Below, one piece after another: positions 13,496 through 27,838 of a DNA stretch of 47,007 nt. Below the pieces are notes generated by a model. That model was given only the letters and a program-made list of their open reading frames with translations, searched no databases and was not told the origin of the DNA. This DNA comes from an uncultured Bacilli bacterium (GTDB lineage: Bacteria; Bacillota_I; Bacilli_A; RF39; UBA660). Each line of letters opens with the position of its first letter. Positions within the stretch are counted from its first letter, which is position 1. The DNA lies in contig CALVVB010000004.1 of NCBI GenBank assembly GCA_944363735.1, positions 1-47,007 of the forward strand, written 5' to 3'. The position numbers were made by a program, and so were the translations under genes.

Positions 13496-13520
13496 AAAAA
13501 AAGTGGAGCCTTATGGCTCC
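13496..13520 (-). terminator. Terminator, probably the displaced 3' end of the host sRNA gene
   Basis: GGAGCC (13505-13510) and GGCTCC (13515-13520) pair around TTAT. On the minus strand the stem is followed by ACTTTTTTTG. It directly abuts CTTCAGGGGG (13520-13529), exactly as the terminator at 23850-23876 abuts the other copy. I infer that it belonged to the small-RNA gene whose promoter and 5' part are now at 23876-23990. Confidence 0.7.
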
Positions 13521-13529
13521 TTCAGGGGG
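13520..13529 (+). other. Left attachment core (attL)
   Basis: CTTCAGGGGG, seven G/C of ten in a very AT-rich window. It matches 23876-23885 exactly and in the same orientation, at the other end of the element. A hairpin terminator and an AAAAAGTG sequence precede it at both ends. Confidence 0.6.
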
Positions 13530-13541
13530 AAATATTAATAT

Positions 13542-13556
13542 CAGTTCGTAACAATT
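13542..13556 (+). repeat. 15-bp inverted repeat, left copy
   Basis: CAGTTCGTAACAATT is the exact reverse complement of AATTGTTACGAACTG at 22576-22590, just upstream of the integrase start. One copy is next to the left att core and one in the int leader, so both could bind the same element-encoded protein. Confidence 0.5.
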
Positions 13557-13643
13557 TAATAATTAGTTAAAGTCTTATATTATAAGGCTTTTTCATTTTC
13601 TTAAATTTACTAAAGTTTATAAAAATAACTTAATTTTCTGAAT

Positions 13644-13667
13644 TTAGTATCTAGATTTGGTATCTGG
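13644..13667 (+). repeat. Integrase arm-type repeats, left end (two copies)
   Basis: TTAGTATCTAG (13644-13654) and TTTGGTATCTGG (13656-13667) repeat the motif found three times at 23772-23815, in the same orientation. Repeats of this sort inside both ends are typical binding sites of the integrase N-terminal domain, as in Tn916-like elements. Confidence 0.55.
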
Positions 13668-13721
13668 AAATCTAATATAACAATTACTCAATACTTCAAT
13701 ATATAATAATCAGAAATAATC

Positions 13722-13964
13722 TTATTCTAAATCCAATTGTGATATTATTCGTTTCCTTTTTCTAGGATTTGCTAAAGCATTTAATTCTTTAACAGTTTGA
13801 TCTATTACTTTTTTTTCTTCCTCTGACAAAGTTCCATAATTTGTTATTTCCAATTGTTCTCCATCATATAATTTATCAGCAAACTCTATATAATCAAATT
13901 TTTCTTTTGTTTCGTCATTTATAAAATTCACCGAATTTCCATTCTTTTCAATTTTATATTTCAT
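13722..13964 (-). CDS. Small protein partner of the PHP-ABC ATPase
   Basis: The protein (80 aa from the ATG at 13964) is short, charged and soluble. It begins KYKIEKNGNSVNFINDETKEKFDY and ends with a basic patch (NPRKRKRII). I do not recognise a family. It overlaps the 3' end of the large ATPase gene by 11-14 nt, and its AAGGAGG site lies inside that gene, so the two are translated as a unit. It could be a regulator, antitoxin or structural partner; the sequence does not say which. ATGs at 13967 and 13964 are both possible, with spacing favouring the latter. Confidence 0.5.
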   Translation of the reverse strand: MKYKIEKNGNSVNFINDETKEKFDYIEFADKLYDGEQLEITNYGTLSEEEKKVIDQTVKELNALANPRKRKRIISQLDLE

Positions 13965-16299
13965 CATTTTCCTCCTTATATGTTTTTATGTTGTATTTTT
14001 TAAATCTTTTCTTTATAGACTTCTTTCCACCATCAGTTATATCAGCAATAATATCCAAACATTTTTTATCAAATATTTTGTTTTCTATATAATTAGACCT
14101 AATAGTAATATTGTCGCCATTTGCTCTGCAATATATTATATTTTCTGCATCTGCTAAAACTGGAATGGTTGCATTATGGCTAACAATAATAATTTGCTTC
14201 TTAGTTTTTGACTTTTTTATATCATTTATTAGTTTATTATTTATATATTTATTGGCTAAATTATCTTCTGGTTGGTCAATTATTAATGGTGCCTCATCTT
14301 TACCGTATTGCAAAATCAACTCTGTTAAAACTGCTGTTTTCCATCCAGGACTTAACTCTTCCCATTTTCTTTTATCAGAAGTAATTATTTTATAATCATA
14401 TTTGTTGGACGAAGTAAATTTAGAAAAAATCTTTTGTTTAAAAACATCATAGTTATCAATTTTATATGATTTATTCAACTTATCCAAAAACAAATCGGAT
14501 GGTTTTATTTTTTCAAAATCAGTTATCTTATTATCGTTTTTTAAAAAATCATTGATATAATCTATGATATTGTTTTTTGTTATTTCCAACTTGTTTTCAA
14601 TAAATAATTGATGACCAGAAATAATTATAGGCTTTGATTGTACCTTATAAGAAAATTTGGCTAATTCATTTAAAGCTTTATCAAATTTTTTTCTTTCCTC
14701 TAAATATTTTGATATATATAATAGTGCTTTCTCATAATTACTATTTTTTGTTTTTATCTCATTATCATCATATTTGTAATTTTCGTCGAATTCTGTTTTA
14801 TGTTTTTTTATTATTTTCCTAATATATTTTTCAAAATAACTCTTTTTATATGCAGTATCTAGTTTTTGTTTAATAGATTCTATTTCTTCTTTTATATCTT
14901 CTATATAAATATTAGTTTTGCTAAATTTATATATTTCATCTAAATAATCTTGATGCTTTTCATATTCATCTTCATTATAATCTAACTTATCAATAATATT
15001 TTCCTTTGGAAATAGTTTTTCTAGTGGATTTTCTCGTTTACTCTTAAACAAAATTAAATTATCTAAATTAGTTAATGCCATTAAATTATTTTGGTAAACT
15101 TCTATTAGTTCAACGGCATTAAGGAGATTTGCTAATACATTATGAAGTTTATTTAATTTATCAGAAGTTTTTCGTTTAGATTGTTCAGTGGGTCCAAACA
15201 TCTGCTTTATTAAAGGAATATCCTCGATTTTATTTTTATTTGCAACATCTGATATAAAATTTTGATTTATATAATATGGAACAAAACCAACAGGATTATC
15301 AACCACCAATCCATCAAAGTCATATTTTACTGAATAATCAATCTTACCTAGTTTAGGATTTATTTCTTTTACAAGAGTATCAACTAATAAACTCTTACCA
15401 GATGATGATTCTCCAATAATAACATTTAATCCCTGTTTAAAATTAACATCGATATCTAGCAAATCATTTTTTATTTTGTATCCATGTATATATTCCTCAT
15501 ATAAATTTGGAATATTTTCGGAATATATTAAACGATTTGATTCTGATAAAGCTATTCTTAATCCTTCAAAAGTTGGTTCTGCAATAATCCATGTTGGTAT
15601 AAATTTTTCAGCCTTATCATCTTTTGGATTCGGATATTTTGTTGGATTATAATTATCAGAACAGGTAATTAAATTAGTGAACTCATCTATTCCTAGTTTT
15701 TTGAAATAATTCTTTGTTTTTTCCTTTCCAGAAGTGGTTCTGGCTGTAAAACCATCAAATTGATTATAGTATAAAACTTTTTCCATTACATTATCAAATT
15801 TTATTCCTTTAGGCATTGCTTTATCAAATGTACTATGATTTTGTCCACCATGTGGAAGAAGTATAAAATCATAATCGTTAAAAGTATTAATTATTTCTTC
15901 TAATTTTGGAATATCTTTATAATCTTCTTTATCAATTTCTTTTTTTGGATATAGCATATCAAGTTTTTCATTTATTTTGTCTATATTATCGCCATTTATT
16001 TCCACATTAAAGAATATATGGCAATGATATGGCTTTTTCTTTGTATCATAACTTACATGTAATTCAGCACCCAATATTAAGTAATACATATCTGGCAATT
16101 TATTCAAATAAATTTTCTTATTTATTATGTTATGATCAGTAAATGATATAAGCTTTTTCTTATCACAAGATATCTTATTAATATTTTTTATCAGTGCATC
16201 AATATCATATTCAACCCCATCTTTAATTTTATTTGGATTTTCAGATGTATGAATATGCAAGTCTGTATAAACGGGTTCAAATGACTCTTTTCTAATCAT
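13954..16299 (-). CDS. PHP-domain plus ABC/SMC-type ATPase (TrlF/RloC-like)
   Basis: The 781-aa protein begins with a PHP metal-hydrolase domain: DLHIHTS (residues 13-19), SFTDHN, LLPHGGQNHS and TCSDNYN. An SMC-like ATPase follows: Walker A GESSSGKS (about 296), a long helical middle region (about 370-560), signature-like LSPGW (about 651), Walker B LIIDQPEDN (about 673) and switch histidine VSHN (about 703). The DQPED motif is typical of RloC/PrrC and TrlF-type ATPases, many of them phage-defence effectors. In the last PHP motif an asparagine stands where a histidine is usual. It starts at ATG after AAGGAAG. Its own promoter and a leader hairpin lie upstream. Confidence 0.85.
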   Translation of the reverse strand: MIRKESFEPVYTDLHIHTSENPNKIKDGVEYDIDALIKNINKISCDKKKLISFTDHNIINKKIYLNKLPDMYYLILGAELHVSYDTKKKPYHCHIFFNVEINGDNIDKINEKLDMLYPKKEIDKEDYKDIPKLEEIINTFNDYDFILLPHGGQNHSTFDKAMPKGIKFDNVMEKVLYYNQFDGFTARTTSGKEKTKNYFKKLGIDEFTNLITCSDNYNPTKYPNPKDDKAEKFIPTWIIAEPTFEGLRIALSESNRLIYSENIPNLYEEYIHGYKIKNDLLDIDVNFKQGLNVIIGESSSGKSLLVDTLVKEINPKLGKIDYSVKYDFDGLVVDNPVGFVPYYINQNFISDVANKNKIEDIPLIKQMFGPTEQSKRKTSDKLNKLHNVLANLLNAVELIEVYQNNLMALTNLDNLILFKSKRENPLEKLFPKENIIDKLDYNEDEYEKHQDYLDEIYKFSKTNIYIEDIKEEIESIKQKLDTAYKKSYFEKYIRKIIKKHKTEFDENYKYDDNEIKTKNSNYEKALLYISKYLEERKKFDKALNELAKFSYKVQSKPIIISGHQLFIENKLEITKNNIIDYINDFLKNDNKITDFEKIKPSDLFLDKLNKSYKIDNYDVFKQKIFSKFTSSNKYDYKIITSDKRKWEELSPGWKTAVLTELILQYGKDEAPLIIDQPEDNLANKYINNKLINDIKKSKTKKQIIIVSHNATIPVLADAENIIYCRANGDNITIRSNYIENKIFDKKCLDIIADITDGGKKSIKKRFKKYNIKTYKEENDEI

Positions 16300-16320
16300 T
16301 TAATTCACTTCCTTACTACT

Positions 16321-16368
16321 AAAAAAACGCCAATACAAAACCTTATAAAATATAAGCCTGTACTAGCG
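16321..16368 (-). terminator. Leader hairpin with seven-T tail before the ATPase gene
   Basis: CGCCAATACA (16328-16337) pairs imperfectly with TGTACTAGCG (16359-16368), and CTTATA/TATAAG (16342-16347, 16351-16356) pair inside. The minus strand then reads TTTTTTT. It sits between a TATAAT box (16392-16387) and the ATPase start codon. It is thus either the terminator of the upstream HAD operon or an attenuator in the ATPase leader. Confidence 0.6.
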
Positions 16369-16386
16369 CTTCCTTTTTATATATCA

Positions 16387-16392
16387 ATTATA
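16387..16392 (-). promoter_or_regulatory. Extended -10 promoter candidate for the ATPase gene
   Basis: The minus strand reads TGATATAAT, an extended -10 box; no good -35 is visible 17 nt upstream. Transcription would start near 16380, about 80 nt before the ATG, so the hairpin at 16321-16368 would be in the leader. Confidence 0.4.
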
Positions 16393-16422
16393 TCACAAAT
16401 TTAACTTTTTTTATCATATTTT

Positions 16423-16483
16423 ATGACACAATGACACATTGTTTGCGAGTACCCTACATGCATTTATAGTGTCATAGTGTCAT
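16423..16483. repeat. Large inverted repeat of tandem ATGACAC units
   Basis: Two ATGACAC units (16423-16429, 16431-16437) face two GTGTCAT units (16469-16475, 16477-16483) across a 31-nt spacer, giving 14 bp of complementarity around one mismatch. The repeat begins 6 nt after the HAD stop and lies upstream of the ATPase promoter. It has no T-tail on the strand of either gene, so it looks more like a protein-binding site or recombination border than a terminator. Confidence 0.6.
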
Positions 16484-16488
16484 TTTCT

Positions 16489-17268
16489 TTATTTCTTTTT
16501 AAATGTTAGTCCTTTTTCTGATTTAATAGGATAAATAAAATTTACTAAATCTACAAATTCTTTATAACTTTGAATGCTATAATCAGTTATCTCATTAATT
16601 TTTTCTCTATCTAAATCTGCATATTTATCATAAATATTTACAACTTCAATACCTGCATTCTTGCTTGCTAATACTCCTGTATAAGAATCTTCAAATATTA
16701 AACATTCACTTGGAGATGCATCATAGTATTGCATTATTTTATTATATATTTCAGGATTAGGTTTCTTATTTTTTACATCTTCTTTTCTAGTAATCAAATC
16801 AAAAACTTCTGCTATATTCATTTGTTCTAGCATTCTTTTATTCTTTTTAGAATAAATATCTAGTTGAACTTGTGTTGTCATTGTTGCTAATACTAAAGTA
16901 AATCCTAAATCTTTCAACATTAATATTAATTTAACGACATCATGTTTAAAATCCATCTCGTTTTCTAAAACTTCACCTGATTTATCCCATCTAATATTAA
17001 GTAATGTCTGTGCATCTCTAATACTGAAGTTATACTTTTTTATTAGATATTTGCAATATGCCAAATAAATATCACTATCTTGATTGCTATGAAGAAAAGC
17101 ATCTCTTTCTGTTTGTATATTGTCTAAATCTATAGACATTCCTCCAAATTCTTCAATCAGTTTTTGATCTGTTCTATTCCAAACCCCAATAGAATCAATT
17201 AGTGTCCCATCCATATCGAAAATAATATACTTTTTATCTTTTAATTTAAGTTCATTTAGTTGTTTCAT
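16489..17268 (-). CDS. HAD-family phosphatase (beta-phosphoglucomutase-like)
   Basis: The 259-aa protein has the haloacid dehalogenase motifs: FDMDGTLIDS (about residues 18-27, catalytic aspartates), the threonine region LATMTT, the lysine in NKKPNPEIY and FEDSYTGVLAS. A helical cap of about 75 residues follows motif I. It hydrolyses phosphate esters of small metabolites; the substrate is not determinable. It is the last gene of the cassette after the zeta-like kinase, with a 49-nt gap and its own AGGAGG site. It may remove a phosphate that the neighbouring kinase adds, but this is inference. Confidence 0.85.
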   Translation of the reverse strand: MKQLNELKLKDKKYIIFDMDGTLIDSIGVWNRTDQKLIEEFGGMSIDLDNIQTERDAFLHSNQDSDIYLAYCKYLIKKYNFSIRDAQTLLNIRWDKSGEVLENEMDFKHDVVKLILMLKDLGFTLVLATMTTQVQLDIYSKKNKRMLEQMNIAEVFDLITRKEDVKNKKPNPEIYNKIMQYYDASPSECLIFEDSYTGVLASKNAGIEVVNIYDKYADLDREKINEITDYSIQSYKEFVDLVNFIYPIKSEKGLTFKKK

Positions 17269-17317
17269 TAGGTTTTACCTCCTATAATCTAATTTGCTTT
17301 ATTATCATTAGAATTAA

Positions 17318-18175
17318 TTATTTTTTATGTGATTTTTCATTATCGTAGTAACTATTTATTTCACAATAAACACTTTCTATTTTCTTTAATTCATCAAATT
17401 GTTCTTGTGGTGCCTTTCTATTCATCATACATTGCTTAATATTATTCATTCTTTTTTCATAGATAGTACATGCATGATCATTACTTTGTTTTCTAAATTC
17501 TTGTAATACCTCTAAGTAATCATTTCCAACTGGTATAACCTTAAATTGATTATCAAATGATACAACATAATTTACTTTTACACCTAAAGATATGCATTTC
17601 GATATGAAATCAGGCAATAAAGTATAACATTTATTATGTGATTCAATATTTGATAATTTAGCATTATCACTTTTTAATATTTCTTTTTCATATCTTTCTC
17701 TTGTAGCAAGTAAACTTGCTAAATCTCCTGCTACCACAACATTTAAAACAACATCGTATTCATTAGGAATTGTTTTTATTAACTCCAATAAGCTACTATC
17801 AATTGGAGCTTTTTCTCTTAAAACTGAATATCTATTTTGTATTGCATAAGAGAAAAGCTCATCCCCCCATAAATGTGCATCATAATTTGTTAGTTTTGCA
17901 TAACTTGTTGGATATTTATCCAATATTTCATCAGAATACTTACTCAAATATCTATAATCATCAGAATTTATAATTACATACTGAGATAAGTCTTCATGAT
18001 TTATATAAGTTGTTTTTCCACAACCCGGTTGTCCTACAACAAACATAATAGATGGATTATTTTCAGCAACTCTATCTGAAAACAATTTCTTCTTTAAAAG
18101 TTCTAAAACCACATCATGTTCTTTTTCAGATAGTTTATATTTTTGAATTAATTCTTGTAATAATTGATTGTTCAC
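17318..18175 (-). CDS. Zeta-toxin family kinase
   Basis: The protein (about 285 aa) has a P-loop FVVGQPGCGKTT (near residue 50), the substrate-site motif INSDDYR and an ATP-contacting region LATRERYEKE, as in zeta/PezT toxins. Those kinases phosphorylate UDP-N-acetylglucosamine and so block wall synthesis. The apparent ATG at 18190 has no ribosome site before it; GGAGG lies just inside and is followed 8 nt later by a GTG at 18175, which I take as the real start. It is one of four same-strand genes led by an XRE regulator, resembling pezAT with two additions. The C-terminal part is helical. Confidence 0.8.
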   Translation of the reverse strand: MNNQLLQELIQKYKLSEKEHDVVLELLKKKLFSDRVAENNPSIMFVVGQPGCGKTTYINHEDLSQYVIINSDDYRYLSKYSDEILDKYPTSYAKLTNYDAHLWGDELFSYAIQNRYSVLREKAPIDSSLLELIKTIPNEYDVVLNVVVAGDLASLLATRERYEKEILKSDNAKLSNIESHNKCYTLLPDFISKCISLGVKVNYVVSFDNQFKVIPVGNDYLEVLQEFRKQSNDHACTIYEKRMNNIKQCMMNRKAPQEQFDELKKIESVYCEINSYYDNEKSHKK

Positions 18176-18216
18176 TTTTGCATCCTCCATTTTAATTTAT
18201 ATATAATTCTTATAAA

Positions 18217-18717
18217 TTATTTAATTAATCCCATATCTAAAAATAAATCTTCTAAATATCGGTTTTTATCCAAGATAATAATTGGATAACTATAATCTTC
18301 TTGGTTTCTACTCCAATTATCAAAATTATACATAACATCTTTTATTAATTCATTACTATTTCCTCTTTGCTTATATCTTTCTAGTAATTTTTTTCTGTTA
18401 TCATAATCATTAGATGGCAATATAAATAAAAAATCTATATTATTATTAATCAATAGTTCTCTTACATCTAAACTAGATGGTACTAATACAATATCATATT
18501 TTTTTCTTGCTTCTAAAATAGCATTTAAATAATTATTAGGCCATTCTGGATTTGGAGTTCTAGATGAATCGTATTTCTTTTTCTCATAATCATTTTTATC
18601 AATCATCGAGTAATCACATCTATATGGAGAACTCTGTAAATCGCATACATTTGAATATTTATTACCAACAGTTGTTTTACCTAATCCTGCAAATACACTT
18701 ATAACTTTTCCGTTCAT
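18217..18717 (-). CDS. Small P-loop kinase-like protein
   Basis: The 166-aa protein has a shortened P-loop at its very start (SVFAGLGKTTVG) and the layout of nucleotide or nucleoside kinases: a YDIVLVPSSLDVREL strand, FLFILPSNDYDNRKKLLERYKQRG (lid-like arginines) and a short C-terminal helix. The likely function is phosphorylation of a small nucleotide-like substrate, but the P-loop lacks the usual glycine pattern and activity is uncertain. ATG at 18717 is chosen because AAAGGAG lies 8 nt upstream. It is 13 nt after the XRE gene and 41 nt before the zeta gene start. Confidence 0.55.
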   Translation of the reverse strand: MNGKVISVFAGLGKTTVGNKYSNVCDLQSSPYRCDYSMIDKNDYEKKKYDSSRTPNPEWPNNYLNAILEARKKYDIVLVPSSLDVRELLINNNIDFLFILPSNDYDNRKKLLERYKQRGNSNELIKDVMYNFDNWSRNQEDYSYPIIILDKNRYLEDLFLDMGLIK

Positions 18718-18730
18718 CGTCATATCTCCT

Positions 18731-19252
18731 TTAGTTTTTCTTTGGCAACTTACTATAATCATATTTATGTTCTGCTACTTCTAATTCATCAAAAGCATAT
18801 TTTATATCTTCAATTGCTTTATCAATTGTATATAAACTATCTTTATCTTTTTGCATTATTTGCAAGTGTTCTATTGTATAAAATAACTTTTGTCTTGCAT
18901 CACTTACTTTTTTTCTTTTTTCATTATCAAAATCTAGTAATTCTAGTTCAGATTTTTTATATTGTTCTATTAAGTCTTTTAAATCTTTACTAGATTTATT
19001 TGCATATTTATCTTTAGAAACATAGAAAAGCATCTCATCATAACCAGCTACCTTTAATAATTTTTGTAATGACATATCTAATGTTTCAGCAATCTTTCGT
19101 AGATCATCAATATCTACTTTTTTTATTTTACCATTAATTAAATCATTTAAAGTACTTCTGCTAATACCTGTTAATTTAGCAAGTTCTCTTTGTGAAATAC
19201 CTTTTGCTTCTCTTGCTGATTCAATTAAAATTTTAAGTTCTTCTGAGTTCAT
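18731..19252 (-). CDS. XRE-family regulator, PezA-like antitoxin candidate
   Basis: The 173-aa protein has an N-terminal helix-turn-helix (SQRELAKLTGISRSTLNDLINGK, about residues 18-40; core GISRSTLNDL) and a charged helical C-terminal half (about residues 75-165). That matches PezA-type antitoxins, which repress their operon and bind the zeta kinase. It is the first gene of the cassette and has its own promoter overlapping an 18-bp palindrome. ATG at 19252 is preferred (GAAGTG upstream) over a start at 19288. Antitoxin function is inferred from position and layout. Confidence 0.85.
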   Translation of the reverse strand: MNSEELKILIESAREAKGISQRELAKLTGISRSTLNDLINGKIKKVDIDDLRKIAETLDMSLQKLLKVAGYDEMLFYVSKDKYANKSSKDLKDLIEQYKKSELELLDFDNEKRKKVSDARQKLFYTIEHLQIMQKDKDSLYTIDKAIEDIKYAFDELEVAEHKYDYSKLPKKN

Positions 19253-19292
19253 AATAACACTTCTTTCTCCCCTTTTGTCTCTCAACAATTTA

Positions 19293-19321
19293 ATTTTACC
19301 ACATTTTTATTCAAATGTCTA
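19293..19321 (-). promoter_or_regulatory. Promoter of the XRE-kinase-zeta-HAD operon
   Basis: The minus strand reads TAGACA (19321-19316), 17 nt, then TAAAAT (19298-19293), close to the consensus. The -35 box lies within the left operator palindrome (19316-19333), which suggests autoregulation by the XRE protein. Confidence 0.6.
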
Positions 19322-19392
19322 GTTTTTCGGTCAAGTTGTATTGACAATATTTTCGGACAGTGTTATATTTAAATTGTCCTTAATATCGGACA
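19316..19392. promoter_or_regulatory. Paired operator palindromes between divergent promoters
   Basis: TGTCTAGTTTTTCGGTCA (19316-19333) and TGTCCTTAATATCGGACA (19375-19392) share half-sites and an 8-nt spacing. A further half-site GGACA lies at 19355-19359. One palindrome covers the -35 box of the leftward promoter and the other the predicted start of the rightward transcript, as expected for a single repressor controlling both. Confidence 0.6.
19341..19369 (+). promoter_or_regulatory. Strong promoter of the mobilization/replication genes
   Basis: TTGACA (19341-19346), 17 nt, TGT-TATATT (-10 at 19364-19369, with an extended TG). This near-consensus promoter drives the rightward genes from 19417 on and faces the leftward cassette promoter. 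Confidence 0.75.
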
Positions 19393-19416
19393 TTCAGAAG
19401 AAAGGAGGTTAAGAAT

Positions 19417-19671
19417 ATGAAATTATTTAAGAAAGATAATATAAATGATTATATAATTCCTAAAGATTTATCTATTAGGGCAACTGGTATGCTTAATTCA
19501 TTATTAGTCAGAACTAATGATGAACTTGAAAATATTGATCTCTACTCTCTTAGTAATGATAGTAGAAAAGATGTTGCATTAGCATTTAGAGAATTAAGAA
19601 AGAAAAAATATATTATCTATAATTCATTAGATGATACATATTACGTTTATGTATCACCACAAAAAAAATAA
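19417..19671 (+). CDS. Small winged-helix-like protein of the element
   Basis: The 84-aa protein is soluble. Its middle part (SIRATGMLNSLLVRTNDE, then LSNDSRKDVALAFRELRKKKYI) fits a short winged-helix domain of the kind used by replication or regulatory proteins. No family is recognised with certainty. It has an excellent AAAGGAGG site and is the first gene after the strong promoter, directly ahead of another small gene and the RepA-like ATPase. It may take part in replication control or in regulating the element. Confidence 0.5.
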   Translation: MKLFKKDNINDYIIPKDLSIRATGMLNSLLVRTNDELENIDLYSLSNDSRKDVALAFRELRKKKYIIYNSLDDTYYVYVSPQKK

Positions 19672-19691
19672 TATGAAAGGAGGAAAAATAT

Positions 19692-19943
19692 ATGTCTGCA
19701 GAAGAAACATTAAAATTAATAGCTAAGCAATGGTGCACCCTAGAAGATATTATGAAACTTGGTCATCTTGGTAGGAATTCTGCACTAAAGGCTAAAAAGA
19801 AAATAAAAGACAAATTAGAAAAACAAGGTTATCTTATTCCAAAGTCTGTCATTCCAACTAAAGAAGTTGTCGCATTCTTTGATATAGATATACCTTATTT
19901 AGAATCTAGAGTTTCTAGTAAAGAATTGATAAAAAAATTGTAA
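19692..19943 (+). CDS. Small DNA-binding-like protein (excisionase or DUF3173-like)
   Basis: The 83-aa protein contains a helix-turn-helix-like segment (TLEDIMKLGHLGRNSALKA) followed by KKIKDKLEKQGYLIPKSVIPT and KEVVAFFDID. This resembles small helix-turn-helix proteins such as DUF3173/excisionase-like factors found in integrative elements. Those usually sit next to int, but here integrase is 2.7 kb away, so the assignment is tentative. It starts 20 nt after the previous gene with an AAAGGAGG site and ends 14 nt before the RepA-like gene. Confidence 0.45.
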   Translation: MSAEETLKLIAKQWCTLEDIMKLGHLGRNSALKAKKKIKDKLEKQGYLIPKSVIPTKEVVAFFDIDIPYLESRVSSKELIKKL

Positions 19944-19957
19944 GAAAGGAGATACAA

Positions 19958-20908
19958 ATGAAACAACTAAATGAAATAAATAAAATCATAAAAAAAGATA
20001 TCATCGTTGAAAACCTAATGATATCAAATGGAGTTTATCTACTTGTATCTCATCCTAAGGTTGGCAAGTCAATGTTTGCTCAGCAACTTGCCTTCTCTCT
20101 TACTACTGGAGAAGATTTTTTAGGATTTAAAGTAAATCCCTCTCATGTCTTATATATTACCACAGAGGGAGATATAAATCAATTAGAAACAAGATTTAAG
20201 TTAATGAATTTAAAGCCTAAATTAGATAAACTTCACATAATAGATTCAGATGATATATCAGATTTTTATATTAGAGATATTGAATATGATATTCATCAGT
20301 TAGCATCCAATAATCAAAAACTATTTGTCATTATAGATATGTTAAAAGATATAAAATTTGATACTAGTTATGATTTAAATAACTATCAAGAAATAAATGA
20401 TGTTGTATTTAGAAAATTAAAAGAGTTATATAAGAAATATAATATCACTCTGCTTGTTACTCATCACTTAAATAAAAGAGATGACACTATGGGTAGTGTT
20501 GGATTAAATGCTGATGTATCTGGAATTATTAAATTAAAAGAATCAAGAAATGATTATAACAAACTAACTTTAGATTATAAAGGTAGAGATTTAGGTAGAT
20601 TAGAATTAAATTTAAAACGAAATGATAATCAAACATTTAGTATTATAGATGAAAATACAGATGATGAAACTGATTATAATCTACTCTTATTTATAAAATA
20701 TGCAGTTTCTAAAAAAGATTTTGATTATACAATATCAGATATTTTATCTAAAACAAATATTTTATTAACTCCAACACAACTTGGAGGTTTAATTCAAAGA
20801 AACCTAAGTTTATTGGAGAAAGAAGGTCTTCATATAACAAGTAAAAGAACTGCTAATGAAAGATTATGGCATTGTTCTTATGAAGAACCTTCCGAAAATA
20901 ATGAATGA
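19958..20908 (+). CDS. RepA-like AAA ATPase (AAA_25)
   Basis: The 316-aa protein has the RecA-like helicase-loader layout: Walker A SHPKVGKSMFA (about residues 31-41), VLYITTEGD and Walker B LFVIIDMLKDI (about 125). A LLVTHHLNKRDD segment follows, and a C-terminal winged-helix-like region after residue 240. It resembles the RSF1010 RepA/AAA_25 hexameric ATPases used by plasmids and mobile elements, so the element may replicate after excision. The gene is followed at once by a chain of hairpins that could be an origin. Start ATG after AAAGGAG. Confidence 0.8.
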   Translation: MKQLNEINKIIKKDIIVENLMISNGVYLLVSHPKVGKSMFAQQLAFSLTTGEDFLGFKVNPSHVLYITTEGDINQLETRFKLMNLKPKLDKLHIIDSDDISDFYIRDIEYDIHQLASNNQKLFVIIDMLKDIKFDTSYDLNNYQEINDVVFRKLKELYKKYNITLLVTHHLNKRDDTMGSVGLNADVSGIIKLKESRNDYNKLTLDYKGRDLGRLELNLKRNDNQTFSIIDENTDDETDYNLLLFIKYAVSKKDFDYTISDILSKTNILLTPTQLGGLIQRNLSLLEKEGLHITSKRTANERLWHCSYEEPSENNE

Positions 20909-21084
20909 ACGTGGCACGTTCTGACCTGTAAGGTTGGAAGTGGCGATAGTGAATTCATTACCCATTAATTAAATGATATAGTATATCGTTTAATTAATCT
21001 TGTAATAGAGAATGCCTTTACCTATTTATTAGGTATTGGCTCTAGCTATTACAAGCATAAAGGATTCTAAGGAATATTCCTTAG
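20907..21084. other. Chain of hairpins between repA-like and mobV, possible origin
   Basis: Perfect or near-perfect hairpins follow each other: GAACGTG-g-CACGTTC (20907-20921), ACCT-gta-AGGT (20924-20934), ATTAATTAAA with TTTAATTAAT enclosing GATATA/TATATC (20964-20998), CTTGTAATAG with CTATTACAAG (20999-21008, 21046-21055) enclosing AGA/TCT, GCC/GGC and ACCTA/TAGGT, and the palindrome CTAAGGAATATTCCTTAG (21067-21084). No reading frame fits. It may act as a single-strand or replication origin, or be transcribed as a structured RNA. Confidence 0.6.
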
Positions 21085-21117
21085 CTCACGGTTGGGCATA
21101 TATTATGCCCTAGTGAG
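21085..21117 (+). other. Candidate oriT of MobV type
   Basis: CTCAC (21085-21089) pairs with GTGAG (21113-21117) around an inner stem GGGCATA/TATGCCC (21094-21100, 21104-21110). The layout recalls the pMV158-type oriT, in which a hairpin ends in TAGTGTG just before the nick; here the corresponding sequence is TAGTGAG. It lies 45 nt upstream of the relaxase gene, the usual place. The nick site is inferred only. Confidence 0.5.
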
Positions 21118-21162
21118 ATAGAGTATTATTTTAAAACAAGCATTGAAAGGAGGTCAAAATAA

Positions 21163-22542
21163 ATGTACTCAGGAAAACAAGCGCTACGATTAGAAAAGTT
21201 TAAAGCATCAGATATTGGTGGACTTGATAAAGAATTAAAGGAAAGAAAAGGTTCTGGTAAATATGATAGTACTAGAACTCCATATAATATAGAATTAATA
21301 AATTATGATGGTCTTACTCTAGCAAGTTCTACATATGATTATCTTTATTCTAATAATATAAACTATAACCCAAATAAAAAAAGTACAAAAGTATTGAATG
21401 GTTTAATCATAACAAGTGGTCAAGAATTCTTTGAACATTATGGAATGGAATTTAAAGATACTGGAGAAGTTTATAAAACTGGAGATAACGCTGGTAAACC
21501 AATTAGACATGTTGTTATAGATGAAAGCCATAAATTACCAACTGAAATAAAAAGATTTTTTGATGAAAGTCTTAACTTTATTTCTAACTTCGTAGGAAAA
21601 GAAAATATAAGATATGCAGCAATACATCTTGATGAATCTACTCCACATATGCATATATATTTCACTCCAGTAGTTAATGAAGTTAAGAGAAAAGTATTTG
21701 AGTTAGATGAAAATGGTCATCAATTAAAACACGAAATAACTAATAAAAAAGGAGAAAAGAAATTAGTACCAATTCAAAAGAAAGATAAAAATGGAAATAA
21801 TATCTATGAAACAGTTAAAGGTAAATTTCTAAATTCAGATCAATTTTGGAAACAAAAAGGTGGTAATGCTTCTTATACTCTACTTCAAGATGATTATAAC
21901 GAATTTATTAAGTCAAAAGGTTATAACTTATTTAGAGGTGAAATTGGTGGAGATAAAACTCATCTAACTAATGCTATGAAACAGCAAATTGAATTAAATG
22001 CTTTAAATAAAGAAATAAGAAAAGAAAATGAGCTATTAAAAGAGGCAAATAAAGCCGAGAATAGATTTATTGATAAAGTTGATAAAGAAACATCAAAAGA
22101 TATCTTAAATCCTATTAAAAAAGGTATTTTAAAGCAATATAAAGATGAAGATATAGATAATCTATCTACTTACTCAAAAGAACTTGCTGAAGATAATATT
22201 AAAAAGGATTTAGAAATTAAACTTCTAACTAAAGAAGTTAATGATTTTAAATCAGGAGAAGCTTATATTAATCAAAAGAAAATTATTGATAGTCAAAAAG
22301 AAATTATTGAAAATAAAAATAAAGAAATAGGATTTTGGAAAAATAAATTTCAAGAATTAACTGAAGAATTTAATAATTTTAAAAATACGATTCAAAACAA
22401 AATATATTCTTTAACTACTAAATTATTAGATGTACTTCATATTCCATATAATTGGCATCAAGCTAATGATCCTGACTTTGCTATTGATAAAGCAAGACAA
22501 CACTTAAATAAAAATAAATCACGTGATGATTTAGAGAGATGA
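21163..22542 (+). CDS. MobV-family relaxase
   Basis: The 459-aa protein shows the MobV metal-binding motif AIHLDESTPHMHIYFTP (about residues 150-166), which with upstream residues cuts one strand at oriT and pilots the DNA to the recipient. The N-terminal domain spans about residues 1-270; then comes a long charged coiled coil (about 275-420: KENELLKEANKAENRF, then EIGFWKNKFQELTEEFNNF). No transmembrane segment. Start ATG after AAAGGAGG. It needs a helper's mating machinery, which is absent here. An integrase gene follows after 87 nt. Confidence 0.9.
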   Translation: MYSGKQALRLEKFKASDIGGLDKELKERKGSGKYDSTRTPYNIELINYDGLTLASSTYDYLYSNNINYNPNKKSTKVLNGLIITSGQEFFEHYGMEFKDTGEVYKTGDNAGKPIRHVVIDESHKLPTEIKRFFDESLNFISNFVGKENIRYAAIHLDESTPHMHIYFTPVVNEVKRKVFELDENGHQLKHEITNKKGEKKLVPIQKKDKNGNNIYETVKGKFLNSDQFWKQKGGNASYTLLQDDYNEFIKSKGYNLFRGEIGGDKTHLTNAMKQQIELNALNKEIRKENELLKEANKAENRFIDKVDKETSKDILNPIKKGILKQYKDEDIDNLSTYSKELAEDNIKKDLEIKLLTKEVNDFKSGEAYINQKKIIDSQKEIIENKNKEIGFWKNKFQELTEEFNNFKNTIQNKIYSLTTKLLDVLHIPYNWHQANDPDFAIDKARQHLNKNKSRDDLER

Positions 22543-22575
22543 TTATAAATATTTGTAGTTTGTATGATAAAATAT

Positions 22576-22590
22576 AATTGTTACGAACTG
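22576..22590 (+). repeat. 15-bp inverted repeat, right copy, in the integrase leader
   Basis: AATTGTTACGAACTG, reverse complement of 13542-13556 near the left end. It lies 40 nt before the integrase start codon, in the short gap after mobV, where it could be an operator or accessory protein site. Confidence 0.5.
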
Positions 22591-22629
22591 GTATATTTAT
22601 AAATCCCAACAAAAAAGGAGGAATGAAAT

Positions 22630-23748
22630 ATGGGAATATATAAATTACCAAAAAATCAATGGACTAAAGATGGTCGTAAATATAAATATTATTGGAATGA
22701 AAAAGATAAAAATGGAAAATGGCATAAAAGGTTTTCTAAAGCTTATAAAACTAAATTAGATGCAATGAACGCTGAAAGAGAGTTTTTAAATAGTAAGGTT
22801 GAATTTGGTGGAGATATGGATATGACATTTGGTACTCTTACTGACCAATATATCGAATCTCAAAAAAATAAAGTTAGAAGAAGAACAATGGAAACATATT
22901 TAAAAAGAAGAAGATATTTTGCTGATTTTGAGAATGTTAAATTAAAAGATATGGATGGAAATCTATATCATAAGTTTCAACAAGATTTATGGAATAAACC
23001 TATTAAATGTTCTACTAGAAATGATGTTCAAAAGTTTTTAAAAATTATTCTTAATTGGGGAATGAAAATGTATGATATCAATCTAATGAAATTTTATAAA
23101 AAAATAGAGTTCTTTAAAGACCCTAATGAAATGAAAGAAGAAAAAGATGTTTACACTTTTGAAGAGTTTCAAAAATATATAACAGGAACTACTAATCTAA
23201 ATGATAAAACAATGTTTGAAATGTTATATTATTGTGGATTACGTCGTGGTGAAGCAAGAGGTTTACAATGGTCTGATATTGACTGGAATAATAAGTTAGT
23301 ATCTATTACTAAACAAGCTAATAGTGTAAAGGATAGTCAAAAATATTATGAACTAACTCCACCTAAAACATCTAAAAGTATTAGAACTTTACCTCTTACT
23401 GAAGTTTTATATAACGATTTAGTAAATTTATACAATGAAAAAAAGAAGTACTACGGCTTCAATGACAAATGGTTTATCTTCGGAGAACACGAACCATTAA
23501 CTTTCGGAATGATGTCTAGAATTAATGGTAGAATTGCTGAAAGTGCTGATATTAGAAGAATACCACTACACTCTTTTAGACATAGTTGTGCATCTCTACT
23601 AATTAATACTGGACAACCTGTAACAACTGTATCTAAGTATTTAGGACATGCTAGTACTAAAGAAACATTAGATACATATGCTCACATGTTTCCAAATAAT
23701 CTTACTAATGTAAAAAATACCATAGATAATTTAAATCTAGGTATTTAA
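22630..23748 (+). CDS. int: Tyrosine recombinase/integrase
   Basis: The 372-aa protein is a full-length phage/Tn916-type integrase. The N-terminal arm-binding domain (about residues 1-55) includes YYWNEKDKNGKWHKRFSKAY. A SAM-like core-binding domain spans about 65-160. The catalytic domain has arginine in CGLRRGEARGLQW (about 206), HSFRHSC (about 314), LGHAS (about 338) and the nucleophilic tyrosine in TYAHMF (about 350). It excises and inserts the element at the short core sequences. The start has GGAGG 8 nt upstream. The gene ends about 130 bp before the right att core, a typical place. Confidence 0.92.
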   Translation: MGIYKLPKNQWTKDGRKYKYYWNEKDKNGKWHKRFSKAYKTKLDAMNAEREFLNSKVEFGGDMDMTFGTLTDQYIESQKNKVRRRTMETYLKRRRYFADFENVKLKDMDGNLYHKFQQDLWNKPIKCSTRNDVQKFLKIILNWGMKMYDINLMKFYKKIEFFKDPNEMKEEKDVYTFEEFQKYITGTTNLNDKTMFEMLYYCGLRRGEARGLQWSDIDWNNKLVSITKQANSVKDSQKYYELTPPKTSKSIRTLPLTEVLYNDLVNLYNEKKKYYGFNDKWFIFGEHEPLTFGMMSRINGRIAESADIRRIPLHSFRHSCASLLINTGQPVTTVSKYLGHASTKETLDTYAHMFPNNLTNVKNTIDNLNLGI

Positions 23749-23771
23749 ATAAACTTAAATAAAAAATAAAT

Positions 23772-23815
23772 TTGGTATCTGAAAAAAGGTTTTTGGTATC
23801 TGGCTTGGTATCTAG
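23772..23815 (+). repeat. Integrase arm-type repeats, right end (three copies)
   Basis: TTGGTATCTG at 23772-23781 and 23793-23802, and TTGGTATCTAG at 23805-23815. Two further copies with the same orientation lie at 13644-13667. They are spaced 61 to 104 bp inside the right att core. Confidence 0.6.
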
Positions 23816-23849
23816 AAAAAATTAAAAACCTCAGAAACCCTTATAAAAC

Positions 23850-23955
23850 AAAAAGTGTTCCCTCTTTCGAGGGAACTTCAGGGGGTTCGGTTGAATATAA
23901 ATCCACACTTAGATCGTGGATTATATCACCATGATAAGTAATATACTTATCATGT
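23850..23955 (-). ncRNA. Small RNA gene carrying the integration site (chimeric 3' end)
   Basis: A promoter (23990-23962) predicts a start near 23955. From there come a 5' hairpin CATGATAAGTA/TACTTATCATG (23954-23930), a second hairpin AATCCAC/GTGGATT (about 23922-23900), a single-stranded ACCGAACCCCCTGAAG and a terminator GTTCCCTC/GAGGGAAC (23857-23876) followed by ACTTTTTG. There is no reading frame with a ribosome site. The CCCCCTGAAG is the att core, so everything to the left of it now comes from the mobile element; the native 3' end should be at 13496-13520. No known RNA family is recognised. Confidence 0.65.
23876..23885 (+). other. Right attachment core (attR)
   Basis: CTTCAGGGGG, identical to 13520-13529. 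It overlaps the last base of the terminator hairpin stem. A third copy is at 27053-27062, outside the element. Confidence 0.6.
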
Positions 23956-23961
23956 ACATTA

Positions 23962-23990
23962 ATCATATCTAAAAATTTTAAAGTTGTCAA
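23962..23990 (-). promoter_or_regulatory. Promoter of the small RNA
   Basis: On the minus strand TTGACA (23990-23985), 17 nt, TATGAT (23967-23962). It lies 34 nt after the recG stop codon, pointing away from recG, and there is no protein gene before the terminator about 110 nt further on. Confidence 0.7.
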
Positions 23991-24023
23991 TTTGATTTTG
24001 AAAATTTTAGAAAAATTTTACAA

Positions 24024-26009
24024 CTAGCTATGTATAATTGCACTAATAAGTCTTAATTTATTAGCATCATTTTCTTTATCTAGTAAGTATTCTAAAGAGT
24101 CTTCTCTAGCTTGTAACAATATTTTATAATCTGCTTTTAAATCTGCTATCTTAAAGGTCATATCACCACTTTGTTTAGTACCAAATAAATCTCCATGTCC
24201 TCTTAATTTAAAATCTTCTTCACTTATTTCAAATCCATCATTAGTATTTTCCATAATCTCAAGTCTTTTTGTATCATTATCACTAATTAAGATACAACTA
24301 GACTGTAATTCACTTCTTCCTACTCTTCCCCTTAACTGATGTAGTGTAGATAAACCAAATCTTTCAGCATTAAATATTACCATCATCGTAGCATTCGGTA
24401 CATCTACCCCTACTTCAATAACAGTTGTACTAATTAGTATCTGTACTTTATTTTGTAAGAACTCATTCATAATTAACTCTTTAGCAGCACTAGCCATTTT
24501 ACCATGTACTAAATCTATTTTATATTTACTACCAAAAGCAAGAGTCATTTTTTCTTTTAAATCATTTACATTAGTTAAATCGCTGTTTTCACTTTCTTCT
24601 ATTAAAGGAGCGATAACATATATCTGATGACCTTCTTTTAACTCTTCATACATTAATTCTAAAACATCTTTAATCTCTTTATTTGTCTTAACAACTGTCT
24701 TAATCTTCTTTCTACCCTTAGGTCTTGTCTTAATAGTAGAAACATCCATATCTCCGTAAATAGTTAAAGCATAAGTTCTAGGAATTGGAGTTGCACTCAT
24801 ATATAAGGTATCAGGTTTTTGTCCTTTATTTTGTAAGTTAGCCCTTTGATTAACTCCAAATCTATGTTGTTCATCTGTTATAACTAAACCAAGATTATGA
24901 TAAGTAACATCATCTTGAATTAGAGCATGTGTTCCAACGATTATATCTATATCACCATTTTTTAATTCTTCATAAATTAAATCTTTTTCTTTCTTAGGAG
25001 TTGATCCTGTAAGTAAAGCCATATTTAAGTTATAATCTTTAAAAACTTCTTTTAAATTACTAAAGTGTTGGGTTGCAAGTATTTCAGTAGGAGCCATTAA
25101 AGCACTTTGATAACCACTTAAATAGTTTGCATACATGGCTATAAAAGAAACAATAGTCTTACCACTACCAACATCACCTTGTAATAATCTATTCATCCTA
25201 TTAGGCCTTTTTAAATCTTTAATAATAGTATTAACTGCAGTTACTTGATCTTTAGTTAGTTCAAAAGGAAGAGATGAAATAAAATTATTTACTTTAGATT
25301 CATCTATACTTCTTGCAATACCACTATTTGCCTTCTTATTCTCTTCTTTTAAATAATTAATTTTAAACATAAACTCAAATAATTCTTCATACTTAAGTCT
25401 TATTATCGCTTCTTTTAATTTTTCTTTACTAGGTGGATTATGTACGATATTTAAAGCCAGTCTCTTATTAGAAAAATTATATTTTTCTTGATATTTTAAA
25501 GGTATACTATCATGTATCTCTTTACTTTGACCAAGTAGGGCCATATTAATATATAAAGCCATATTTTTATTAGTTAAGCCACTAGTTAAATGGTAAACTG
25601 GCTCGATCTTTACTTTATTAGATAAAGACTCCATCTTTATTTCTGATGCTGTTATAACATTTTTAGGTTTATCAAACTTACCAATTACTGTGATAGTTGT
25701 ACCAACTGTAAGTTGACTTTTTAAAAAAGCTCTATTAAATATTGAAACTCCTACAACTCCACTAGCTGTTACAAGGCGAAAGTTCATTTTATTAAGTCCT
25801 GCTTTAAATCTAACTAATATTGGACTACTTTCTATTTTTCCATCTATAATTATATGATCTCCATCATTTGTTTCAGCTAAATTTCCTCTAACTAAAAATT
25901 CATATCTAAAAGGATAATGGGTAACTAAATCATCTACTGTATTTATCCCAATTTTAGAAAGAAGTGTTAAAGCTCTAGGTCCTACACCTTTTATATCTTT
26001 TAATGCCAT
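24024..26009 (-). CDS. recG: ATP-dependent DNA helicase RecG
   Basis: This 661-aa protein remodels stalled replication forks and Holliday junctions. The N-terminal wedge/OB domain (helix-hairpin-helix GVGPRALTLLSKIGI; HYPFRYEF) is followed by helicase motifs: Walker A LLQGDVGSGKT (about 277-287), DEQHRFG, TLYMSATPIPRT, and the C-terminal LRGRVGRSE. The length is normal. ATG at 26009 is chosen (GAGG 8 nt upstream); the GTG at 26018 overlaps the binding site. It stands alone with an extended -10 promoter just upstream, and the small RNA gene lies downstream. Confidence 0.97.
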   Translation of the reverse strand: MALKDIKGVGPRALTLLSKIGINTVDDLVTHYPFRYEFLVRGNLAETNDGDHIIIDGKIESSPILVRFKAGLNKMNFRLVTASGVVGVSIFNRAFLKSQLTVGTTITVIGKFDKPKNVITASEIKMESLSNKVKIEPVYHLTSGLTNKNMALYINMALLGQSKEIHDSIPLKYQEKYNFSNKRLALNIVHNPPSKEKLKEAIIRLKYEELFEFMFKINYLKEENKKANSGIARSIDESKVNNFISSLPFELTKDQVTAVNTIIKDLKRPNRMNRLLQGDVGSGKTIVSFIAMYANYLSGYQSALMAPTEILATQHFSNLKEVFKDYNLNMALLTGSTPKKEKDLIYEELKNGDIDIIVGTHALIQDDVTYHNLGLVITDEQHRFGVNQRANLQNKGQKPDTLYMSATPIPRTYALTIYGDMDVSTIKTRPKGRKKIKTVVKTNKEIKDVLELMYEELKEGHQIYVIAPLIEESENSDLTNVNDLKEKMTLAFGSKYKIDLVHGKMASAAKELIMNEFLQNKVQILISTTVIEVGVDVPNATMMVIFNAERFGLSTLHQLRGRVGRSELQSSCILISDNDTKRLEIMENTNDGFEISEEDFKLRGHGDLFGTKQSGDMTFKIADLKADYKILLQAREDSLEYLLDKENDANKLRLISAIIHS

Positions 26010-26035
26010 ACACACCACCTCTTTTTCTGTCTCAT

Positions 26036-26044
26036 ATTATAGCA
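26036..26044 (-). promoter_or_regulatory. Extended -10 promoter of recG
   Basis: The minus strand reads TGCTATAAT; the -35 region is only T-rich. The same TGCTATAAT occurs before gatC (37425-37417), so it may be a common promoter form in this genome. Confidence 0.5.
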
Positions 26045-26102
26045 TATTTTTTAGAATTTTAAAAGAAAATAAATCATAAAATTTAAATAAAAGGAGGAAG
26101 TT

Positions 26103-26831
26103 ATGAAAGTAATTGCAAATGGTGGTGCATCTACTAAAAATGTAGCTAGTAATACTTTAGATGCTATTTATTTAGGACTTAATGCTCCATATATTGATGG
26201 ATTTAAATTTAAACTTTATTTGACTAAAGATAAAGAAATTATTACTTTGAGTGATGATATTGTAAATCTTTTTACAAAGGGTATTAATGAAATAGATGAC
26301 TATACTTTGAAAGACTTTCTATTTTTTAATGTAGGAAGTAGTGTTCAAAAACAACAAATAGTTACGTTAAGACAAATTTTATATACTTTTCAAAATAGAG
26401 GAAAATATTTAATATTAGAACTTGCTGATCAAAAAGAAAATAATGCTTTATTTACAGATTTAGTTTTGAATATGGTAAGGAGTTACTCTAATAGTATTAA
26501 TATTTATTTGGAAAGTGAAAATAAAGAAATAGTTGAGTATTTAAAAGCAACTGATAATTCTTATCCTATCGGTATTAGGGTAACAGAAAATAGTAGAGAT
26601 AATTGGTTTATTGATGTTGATTTTTATGATATTAACACTACTCTTTTAGATGATTTTAATATAAGAGAAAAAGTTAGAGAAAATAAGCTTATTATGATAG
26701 ATCAAGTAAATAGAATGGAAGTATTTGATTTAATCTATGCTGAATATCAAGATATATTTAATTATATTTATATTATAACTAGTCAAATTGCTAATATTAA
26801 TAGTAATGAGCAAATCCAAAATAGAAGTTAA
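26103..26831 (+). CDS. GDPD-fold protein without catalytic residues
   Basis: The 242-aa protein aligns by layout with glycerophosphodiester phosphodiesterases: the opening KVIANGGASTKNVASNTLDA, then GFKFKLYLTKDKEIITLSDD, and LILELADQKEN in the middle. Active enzymes have HRG at the start, a glutamate/aspartate pair in the second strand and HD in the last motif. Here they are NGG, KFK and SD, so phosphodiesterase activity is unlikely. It has no signal peptide. It may be a binding or regulatory protein. AAAGGAGG site, and a terminator overlaps the stop codon. Confidence 0.65.
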   Translation: MKVIANGGASTKNVASNTLDAIYLGLNAPYIDGFKFKLYLTKDKEIITLSDDIVNLFTKGINEIDDYTLKDFLFFNVGSSVQKQQIVTLRQILYTFQNRGKYLILELADQKENNALFTDLVLNMVRSYSNSINIYLESENKEIVEYLKATDNSYPIGIRVTENSRDNWFIDVDFYDINTTLLDDFNIREKVRENKLIMIDQVNRMEVFDLIYAEYQDIFNYIYIITSQIANINSNEQIQNRS

Positions 26832-26849
26832 ATTTTAACTTCTGTTTTT
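26823..26849 (+). terminator. Terminator of the GDPD-like gene
   Basis: AGAAGTTAA (26823-26831) and TTAACTTCT (26835-26843) form a 9-bp stem, followed by GTTTTTA. The TAA stop codon is part of the stem. Confidence 0.75.
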
Positions 26850-26940
26850 ATTAGTAGTACTTTTAAGTATATATATATAATTTTTTAATAACTACTTAAA
26901 CTATAAACATCTAAAAAATAGTATTTTTTTCAAAAAAGTG

Positions 26941-26969
26941 TTGACAAAATAACAACAAGTGATTATTAT
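26941..26969 (+). promoter_or_regulatory. Promoter of the collagen-like gene leader
   Basis: TTGACA (26941-26946), 17 nt, TATTAT (26964-26969). Transcription should start near 26976, about 175 nt before the start codon. The stretch from 26850 to here is AT-rich and holds nothing else I can name. Confidence 0.75.
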
Positions 26970-26975
26970 AAAAAG

Positions 26976-27085
26976 CACCAATTCGGAATTAGGCGAATTG
27001 GTCGCTAGTATCACACTAGCCAACCCCTTTTTATTCTTTTTAAGAGACTGCCCTTCAGGGGGTGCAGTCTCTATTTTTATTTTTG
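26976..27085 (+). ncRNA. Structured leader RNA with terminator (possible attenuator)
   Basis: After the predicted start come hairpin CCAATTC/GAATTGG (26978-26984, 26995-27001), hairpin GCTAGT/ACTAGC (27004-27009, 27015-27020), a single-stranded AACCCC (27022-27027) and a terminator AGAGACTGC/GCAGTCTCT (27043-27051, 27064-27072) followed by ATTTTTATTTTTG. The terminator loop is CTTCAGGGGG plus flanks. AACCCC could pair with the loop's GGGGGT and weaken the terminator, and GCACC at the 5' end could pair with GGTGC. This looks like an attenuation leader; no known riboswitch was recognised. Confidence 0.55.
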
Positions 27086-27151
27086 TCCATGACAATAGTC
27101 AAGACGGAAATTTATATCCTTCATATTTTAATAATGAAAGGAGATAAAATT

Positions 27152-27838
<687 letters not shown>

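Follow-up and report, generated by a model that had tools for sequence, protein, structure and literature searches.

In Bacillus subtilis, the small RNA (sRNA) RosA acts as a sponge of RoxS and FsrA; it has a length of about 229 nt and contains three G-rich regions, two of which are predicted to be single-stranded (PMC8216469). RsaI (RsaOG) of Staphylococcus aureus is a partner of RsaE, RsaG, and RsaD; it contacts sRNAs through G-rich segments and mRNAs through a C-rich one (PMC8216469). An sRNA locus can also serve as an integration site, e.g., ryeA/ryeB of Salmonella for phage PhiW104 (Balbontin 2008, as reported in PMC7380047).

The window, i.e., the whole stretch of 47,007 nt analyzed here, stems from an uncultured Bacilli bacterium and contains two sRNA genes, RNA1 and RNA2 (Table 1), for which RosA-RoxS and RsaI-RsaE would be the best model, with G-rich segments occupying C-rich seeds. 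As with RosA, a G-rich segment of one sRNA (RNA2) is predicted to pair with the C-rich seed of another (RNA1). In contrast to RosA, the G-rich segment of RNA2 is one conserved terminator loop, RNA1 and RNA2 flank recG, and no Rfam relationship was found. RNA2 also appears to share with RsaI the combination of a G-rich segment for sRNA pairing with a C-rich segment, which may bind mRNAs. Unlike RsaI itself, it had no match to the RsaOG family of Rfam at E values up to 5. The Rfam searches (whole window at gathering threshold; 23700-27200 at E values up to 5) yielded no credible match at all, and the covariance models of RsaE/RoxS and RsaOG had none in either search. A literature search on small RNAs of RF39 returned nothing relevant.

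Table 1. Positions of the analyzed genes, RNAs, and sequence elements in the window
Feature	Position	Strand	Evidence
Integrated mobilizable element	13530..23875		Protein domain search
Far att copy CCCCCUGAAG and probable original RNA1 terminator GGAGCC-AUAA-GGCUCC	13505..13529	-	Same terminator type in relatives
Zeta-toxin-like protein of the element	17318-18190	-	Protein domain search
AAA_25 protein of the element	19958-20908	+	Protein domain search
Mob_Pre relaxase of the element	21163-22542	+	Protein domain search
Tyrosine integrase of the element	22630-23748	+	Protein domain search
RNA1, conserved small RNA with two hairpins followed by an unpaired seed and a terminator	23849..23956	-	Promoter, terminator, folding, relatives; ends estimated
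Current RNA1 terminator hairpin, supplied by the element	23857..23876	-	Identical hairpin and flank beside the same integrase type in other genomes
RNA1 seed ACCCCCUGAAG, serving also as the right-hand att core of the element	23876..23886	-	Near-invariant across genera; homology between most genomes stops here
RNA1 promoter TTGACA-17-TATGAT, near-consensus	23962..23990	-	Promoter scan; kept in relatives
recG, conserved gene between RNA1 and RNA2	24024..26018	-	Protein search; synteny in other genera
RNA2 promoter TTGACA-17-TATTAT, near-consensus	26941..26969	+	Hexamers kept, spacer diverges between genomes
RNA2, conserved small RNA: three hairpins, the last being the terminator	26974..27085 (about)	+	345/385 genomes, folding; ends estimated from promoter and terminator
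RNA2 ultraconserved core GCUAGUAUCACACUAGCCAACCCCUUUUUAUUC with C/U-rich unpaired stretch	27004..27036	+	No change in nearly all loci read
Terminator of RNA2 with covarying stem, conserved loop CCUUCAGGGGGU, and U tract	27043..27085	+	Folding, covariation
Segment CUUCAGGGGGU of the RNA2 loop, complementary to the RNA1 seed over 11 nt	27053..27063	+	Sequence search, duplex prediction
Collagen-like gene, genus-level neighbor of RNA2	27152..27838	+	Protein search

RNA1 and RNA2 are two previously undescribed, putatively expressed small RNAs that are conserved over more than 100 genera of gut bacteria. Both have an own promoter, an intrinsic terminator, a conserved structure, and an intergenic position. 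In RNA1, which is encoded on the minus strand, two hairpins are followed by the unpaired CAACCGAACCCCCUGAAG and the terminator; the seed is predicted to be unpaired, and the folding energy differs from that of shuffled sequences by a z value of -5.4. BLAST revealed near full-length relatives in 25 of the 35 genomes of the window's genus (loci L005-L029), and in most of them, the match stops exactly at the core, with a different terminator hairpin beyond it. In the family, RNA1 was detected in 153 of 243 genomes with a covariance model of the genus and in 183 of 243 with a family model; the latter (R3) contains just 7 base pairs and is mostly sequence-based, and absences of RNA1 are soft. The unpaired ACCCCCUGA is kept in nearly all relatives read outside genus g99, the exceptions being a degenerate candidate in genome G096 and variants in the length of the C run.

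In RNA2, two hairpins precede the unpaired CCAACCCCUUUUUAUUC and the terminator that holds CUUCAGGGGGU. This terminator was found by folding (z value of RNA2 versus shuffles -5.1) and was not listed by a simple terminator scan. Strong matches occur at 28 loci of the window's genus (L035-L062), where the body is nearly identical, in contrast to the divergent spacer of the promoter and stem of the terminator. The covariance model detected RNA2 in 214 of the 243 family genomes and in 345 of 385 genomes of a sample of the order, all listed matches belonging to the same family. The exact 33-nt core pattern was found in at least 118 stretches of GTDB contigs, nearly all from metagenome-assembled genomes (MAGs) labeled Bacilli, Bacillales, Tenericutes, Mollicutes, or similar. 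The lineage is a large, mostly uncultured gut group, represented by small-genome MAGs labeled Bacilli, Tenericutes, or Mollicutes. The two RNA genes are often 2-5 kb apart and flank recG; in loci selected to cover both, RecG is 53-75% identical to RecG of the window and the RNA2 core is unchanged. An RNA core that is unchanged across genera with RecG proteins about 55-75% identical is yet without any entry in Rfam. Tandem duplicates of RNA2 about 150 bp apart were observed at L210 (positions 5079 and 5234; one copy with UUCAGGGGGG, the other with CACAGAGGAG) and in genome G318 (C1:117051 and 117204).

The link between the two RNAs is a sequence of ten bases, CTTCAGGGGG. A genome-wide exact search found three copies in the 1.25-Mb genome, all on the plus strand and all inside the window (13520-13529, 23876-23885, 27053-27062). 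Within the window, permitting one mismatch added no further copy; 0.30 copies were expected, and three were reached in none of 100 shuffles. The copies at 13520 and 23876 are the two ends of the integrated element, where the minus strand reads CCCCCTGAAG, then a hairpin, then a T tract; both att copies are thus located immediately 5′ of a minus-strand terminator hairpin. The third copy had been reported in a terminator loop by an earlier reading of the sequence alone, and its exact position and the predicted fold verify this: the stem AGAGACUGC/GCAGUCUCU (27043-27051/27064-27072) of a plus-strand terminator encloses the loop at 27052-27063, followed by a U tract. The perfect complementarity to the sRNA, given there as 10 nt, is real and extends over 11 nt (ACCCCCUGAAG in RNA1). 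The view that such a match is not expected by chance was right, as the RNA2 loop is kept family-wide. What had been designated as the leader of the collagen-like gene is a separate RNA gene with its own near-consensus promoter and not specifically a leader of that gene.

Stem and loop of the RNA2 terminator turned out to evolve differently. Among 96 sequences, both sides of the stem were changed at 10 of the 12 pairs, and 98.3% of the cells were paired. For the whole structure, 254 double-change cells were counted versus a mean of 64 in shuffles, a type of count that is inflated by relatedness. The loop, in contrast, retained the sequence CAGGGGG in about 90% of the RNA2 tails, of which 191 distinct ones were compared. 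The triplet 5′ of GGGGG was UCA in 155 tails, CCA, ACA, or GCA in 15, UUA in 3, and another one in 3, while 15 tails lacked GGGGG. The "other" triplet of L320 is an artifact of the scan caused by an extra G run in the stem, and the true loop is CUCAGGGGGG. The variant UUAGGGGG, present in three tails, is compatible with pairing through wobble. Such a pattern, with sequence constraint in the loop and sequence freedom in the stem, is expected of an interaction site.

A matching change in both partners was observed in genus g99. Its RNA1 contains ACCCCCUUGG in all four genomes in which it was read (G251, G132, G296, and G297), and RNA2 of G251, G296, and G297 contains CCAAGGGGGU. The two are perfectly complementary over 10 bp, and three of the positions have changed in both RNAs. 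A search of 400 kb of G251 located CCAAGGGG at two places only, RNA2 and, in antisense orientation, RNA1. In the other two species, UU replaces the AA of the loop (CCUUGGGGGU in G132, CCAUUGGGGGU in G295), and there is no match. The sequence-only reading had proposed to look for co-variation of the two partners, and the outcome was mixed, with a matching change in three of the five g99 species and none in the other two. The co-change may be a single event, and its weight is limited also by the two non-matching species.

The 11-bp duplex of RNA1 and RNA2 has a predicted energy of -20.4 kcal/mol, and opening would cost 3.5 kcal/mol for the RNA1 seed and 5.8 kcal/mol for the RNA2 loop, so that a simple sum predicts a net energy of roughly -11 kcal/mol. 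The comparison reveals a loop that is complementary to a seed predicted to be accessible, and the complementarity is conserved. It is not universal. Eight genomes have lost the RNA2 loop and retain an intact RNA1 seed (G040, G062, G162, G280, G281, G283, G284, and G286). The loop is also lost in G096, which has the degenerate RNA1 candidate only, and in G005 of the window's genus, in which the search found no RNA1. Conversely, seven genomes have kept the loop and show no RNA1 beyond recG (G052, G066, G241, G228, G151, G134, and G256), a group confounded by incomplete assemblies and relocated RNA1 copies. RNA2 loops may thus persist without a nearby RNA1. Changes of one partner alone, which had been named as the observation that would speak against pairing, therefore do occur in several genomes; both segments are still conserved family-wide. 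Such changes indicate that pairing is not obligatory and that the RNA1 seed has other uses, i.e., it is kept for more than RNA2.

Taken together, pairing of the sRNA with the loop, as had been suggested, is very likely, because both segments are conserved throughout the family and changed together in one genus. Direct RNA1-RNA2 pairing, as predicted from comparison, is well supported, but not obligatory. The reading that we consider probable is a conserved sRNA-sRNA pair with sponge-like mutual control. RNA1 would expose, after the second hairpin and ahead of the terminator, the C-rich seed ACCCCCUGA, RNA2 would present (U)UCAGGGGGU in its terminator loop alongside the ultraconserved C/U-rich stretch, and the two RNAs would pair directly over 9-11 bases. 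Pairing would occupy the RNA1 seed and, as a likely consequence, mark or destabilize one of the RNAs. That termination is not the regulated step is inferred, as is the direction of the effect. With more than 100 genera, the pair would be well suited for testing sRNA-sRNA pairing via a terminator loop.

Other uses of the seed could be found among mRNAs. The hok mRNA is one type of type I toxin mRNA. Fst is also encoded by a type I toxin mRNA (reviewed in PMC4147584). Similar transcripts, predicted to encode tiny hydrophobic peptides and to have base-paired ends as well as an occluded ribosome-binding site, were found in the window's genome; in contrast to type I toxins, the peptides had no credible match in Pfam or NCBIfam, and their toxicity is putative. 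It is possible, though we would not favor it, that RNA1 mainly targets such mRNAs, i.e., that it acts in trans, in this genus, on mRNAs for small hydrophobic, type-I-toxin-like peptides and that the RNA2 loop mimics the mRNA loop. In agreement with this, UUCAGGGG is located about 20-26 nt upstream of hydrophobic open reading frames of 16-24 amino acids at L440, L445, and L446 in the own genome, and the same arrangement occurs in G001, G010, G012, and G034. Folding places UUCAGGGG next to the occluded ribosome-binding site and pairs the 5′ and 3′ ends of the transcripts, with -68 to -83 kcal/mol for those of the own genome, and the predicted duplexes with RNA1 have -15 to -24.5 kcal/mol. On the other hand, a homologous mRNA of G230, a genome of another genus, has a small AUAA loop without an RNA1 site, no such mRNA was recognized in 400 kb of G251, and the searches detected no RNA1 in G034 in spite of the mRNA present there. 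TCAGGGG is also not enriched genome-wide, with 19 sites versus 20 in the reversed control; 3 of the 19 lie 20-26 nt before tiny open reading frames such as MSKKDFLIVILLIIIILLIIYR. Judged from these comparisons, the link of RNA1 to toxin-like mRNAs is at best genus-level, and RNA1 may regulate putative toxin-like mRNAs in this genus. Somewhat more doubtful still is a family-wide circuit of two sRNAs, in which the RNA1 seed would be regulatory site, crossover site of elements, and controller of toxin-like mRNAs at once, and the RNA2 loop a decoy of the toxin-mRNA loop.

The toxin-like mRNAs have a leader GGAATACTTAGTAATGGGTG, with the ribosome-binding site in a hairpin and a loop UUCAGGGG that is complementary to RNA1. 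Their positions in the own genome are G000:C12:16454 (L440), G000:C46:840 (L445), and G000:C63:73812 (L446); further loci are L095, L099, L101, and L113. Homologous peptides of G230, MTKKDFLISSLIIIIILLIALLFVILK and MYKKDFLILSFIIIIFLHIALLFTLVK, are encoded at L474:12622 and L487:15569, and the L487 mRNA has the same fold around its AUAA loop. A plasmid search with one toxin-like mRNA gave short weak matches only, and the leader pattern was found in none of the viral contigs.

A second alternative is that the loop serves RNA2 itself, its GGGGU pairing with the own ACCCC as a pseudoknot, and that the match to RNA1 is incidental. AACCCC is indeed invariant in RNA2, and pairing of the C run with the loop is predicted at -11.1 kcal/mol, before opening costs. 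Nevertheless, we regard this as unlikely, as it accounts neither for the co-change in g99 nor for the conservation of UCA ahead of the G run, and AACCCC persists where the loop is lost. RNA1-RNA2 pairing remains the preferred explanation of the loop.

The sequence-only reading had instead proposed that the sRNA pairs with the nascent leader, alters termination, and thereby controls the collagen-like gene. The loop is part of an intrinsic terminator upstream of this gene, and the gene is present 3′ of RNA2 in most genomes of the genus. It is absent in several others that contain RNA2, and, in general, RNA2 is conserved while its downstream gene is not: of 130 distinct downstream regions, 5 contained a collagen-like gene, all with the terminator type of this genus, and it occurred at none of 125 loci outside the genus. 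The count covers RNA2 loci for which 700 bp or more of downstream sequence was available (n=130); the recG-spanning loci of other genera, which end about 100 bp past RNA2, do not enter into it. Control of the collagen-like gene through termination is thus very improbable. A role of RNA2 as leader or attenuator of the gene was rejected on the same counts. Inspection of an alignment by eye revealed a possible sigma-K-like promoter, GAC-16-CATATTTTAAT, ahead of the collagen-like gene (27086-27151), with similar sequences in relatives.

The weakest proposal sees in the third copy a further integration site or the relic of one. The copy does share ten bases and the orientation with both att copies, but the proposal can practically be dismissed, since a check for element copies at this site found none of the 191 distinct RNA2 tails joined to an element end, whereas many elements occupy RNA1 sites, and the loop is conserved also in genera with an unrelated terminator stem.

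RNA1, in contrast, is used repeatedly. It shows a direct repeat at both element ends, a restored RNA gene, and an integrase at one end. ARAGORN found no tRNA or tmRNA in the window, and the att site is thus not a tRNA. Of 60 RNA1 sites, 15 had a homolog of this integrase no more than 1.5 kb downstream; apart from that of the window, three of these, although located in other genomes, share 92-97% identity with it. Element ends also account for most other CTTCAGGGGG sites of the genus, where recurrent element-internal flanks abut CCCCCTGAAG, followed by a terminator hairpin. The 3′ end of RNA1 appears to be an integration hot spot, at which the integrative elements would cross over in the seed, bring their own substitute terminator, and leave RNA1 intact. 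PhiW104 likewise integrates site-specifically where an sRNA gene ends (3′ end; PMC7380047); in contrast to that case, many elements in many genera would use the seed-terminator boundary here and swap in an own terminator hairpin. This suggests a reason for which integrases can share one target over so many genera: they would use a seed that the host cannot change and replace the terminator so that the RNA survives.

The element ends that abut CCCCCTGAAG belong to three or four distinct families at least (two ends each at L114 and L119; L100, L104, L106, L107, L112, L115, and L116), and the contigs with two ends suggest tandem arrays of elements at RNA1. The NUDIX neighbor at the far att boundary is found at the same boundary in L104. 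RNA1 is often located at contig ends, e.g., G192:C2:96, G041:C22:35, G069:C38:30, and L007 (G014), which would be expected if elements at the hot spot break assemblies and may explain some of the missing RNA1 calls.
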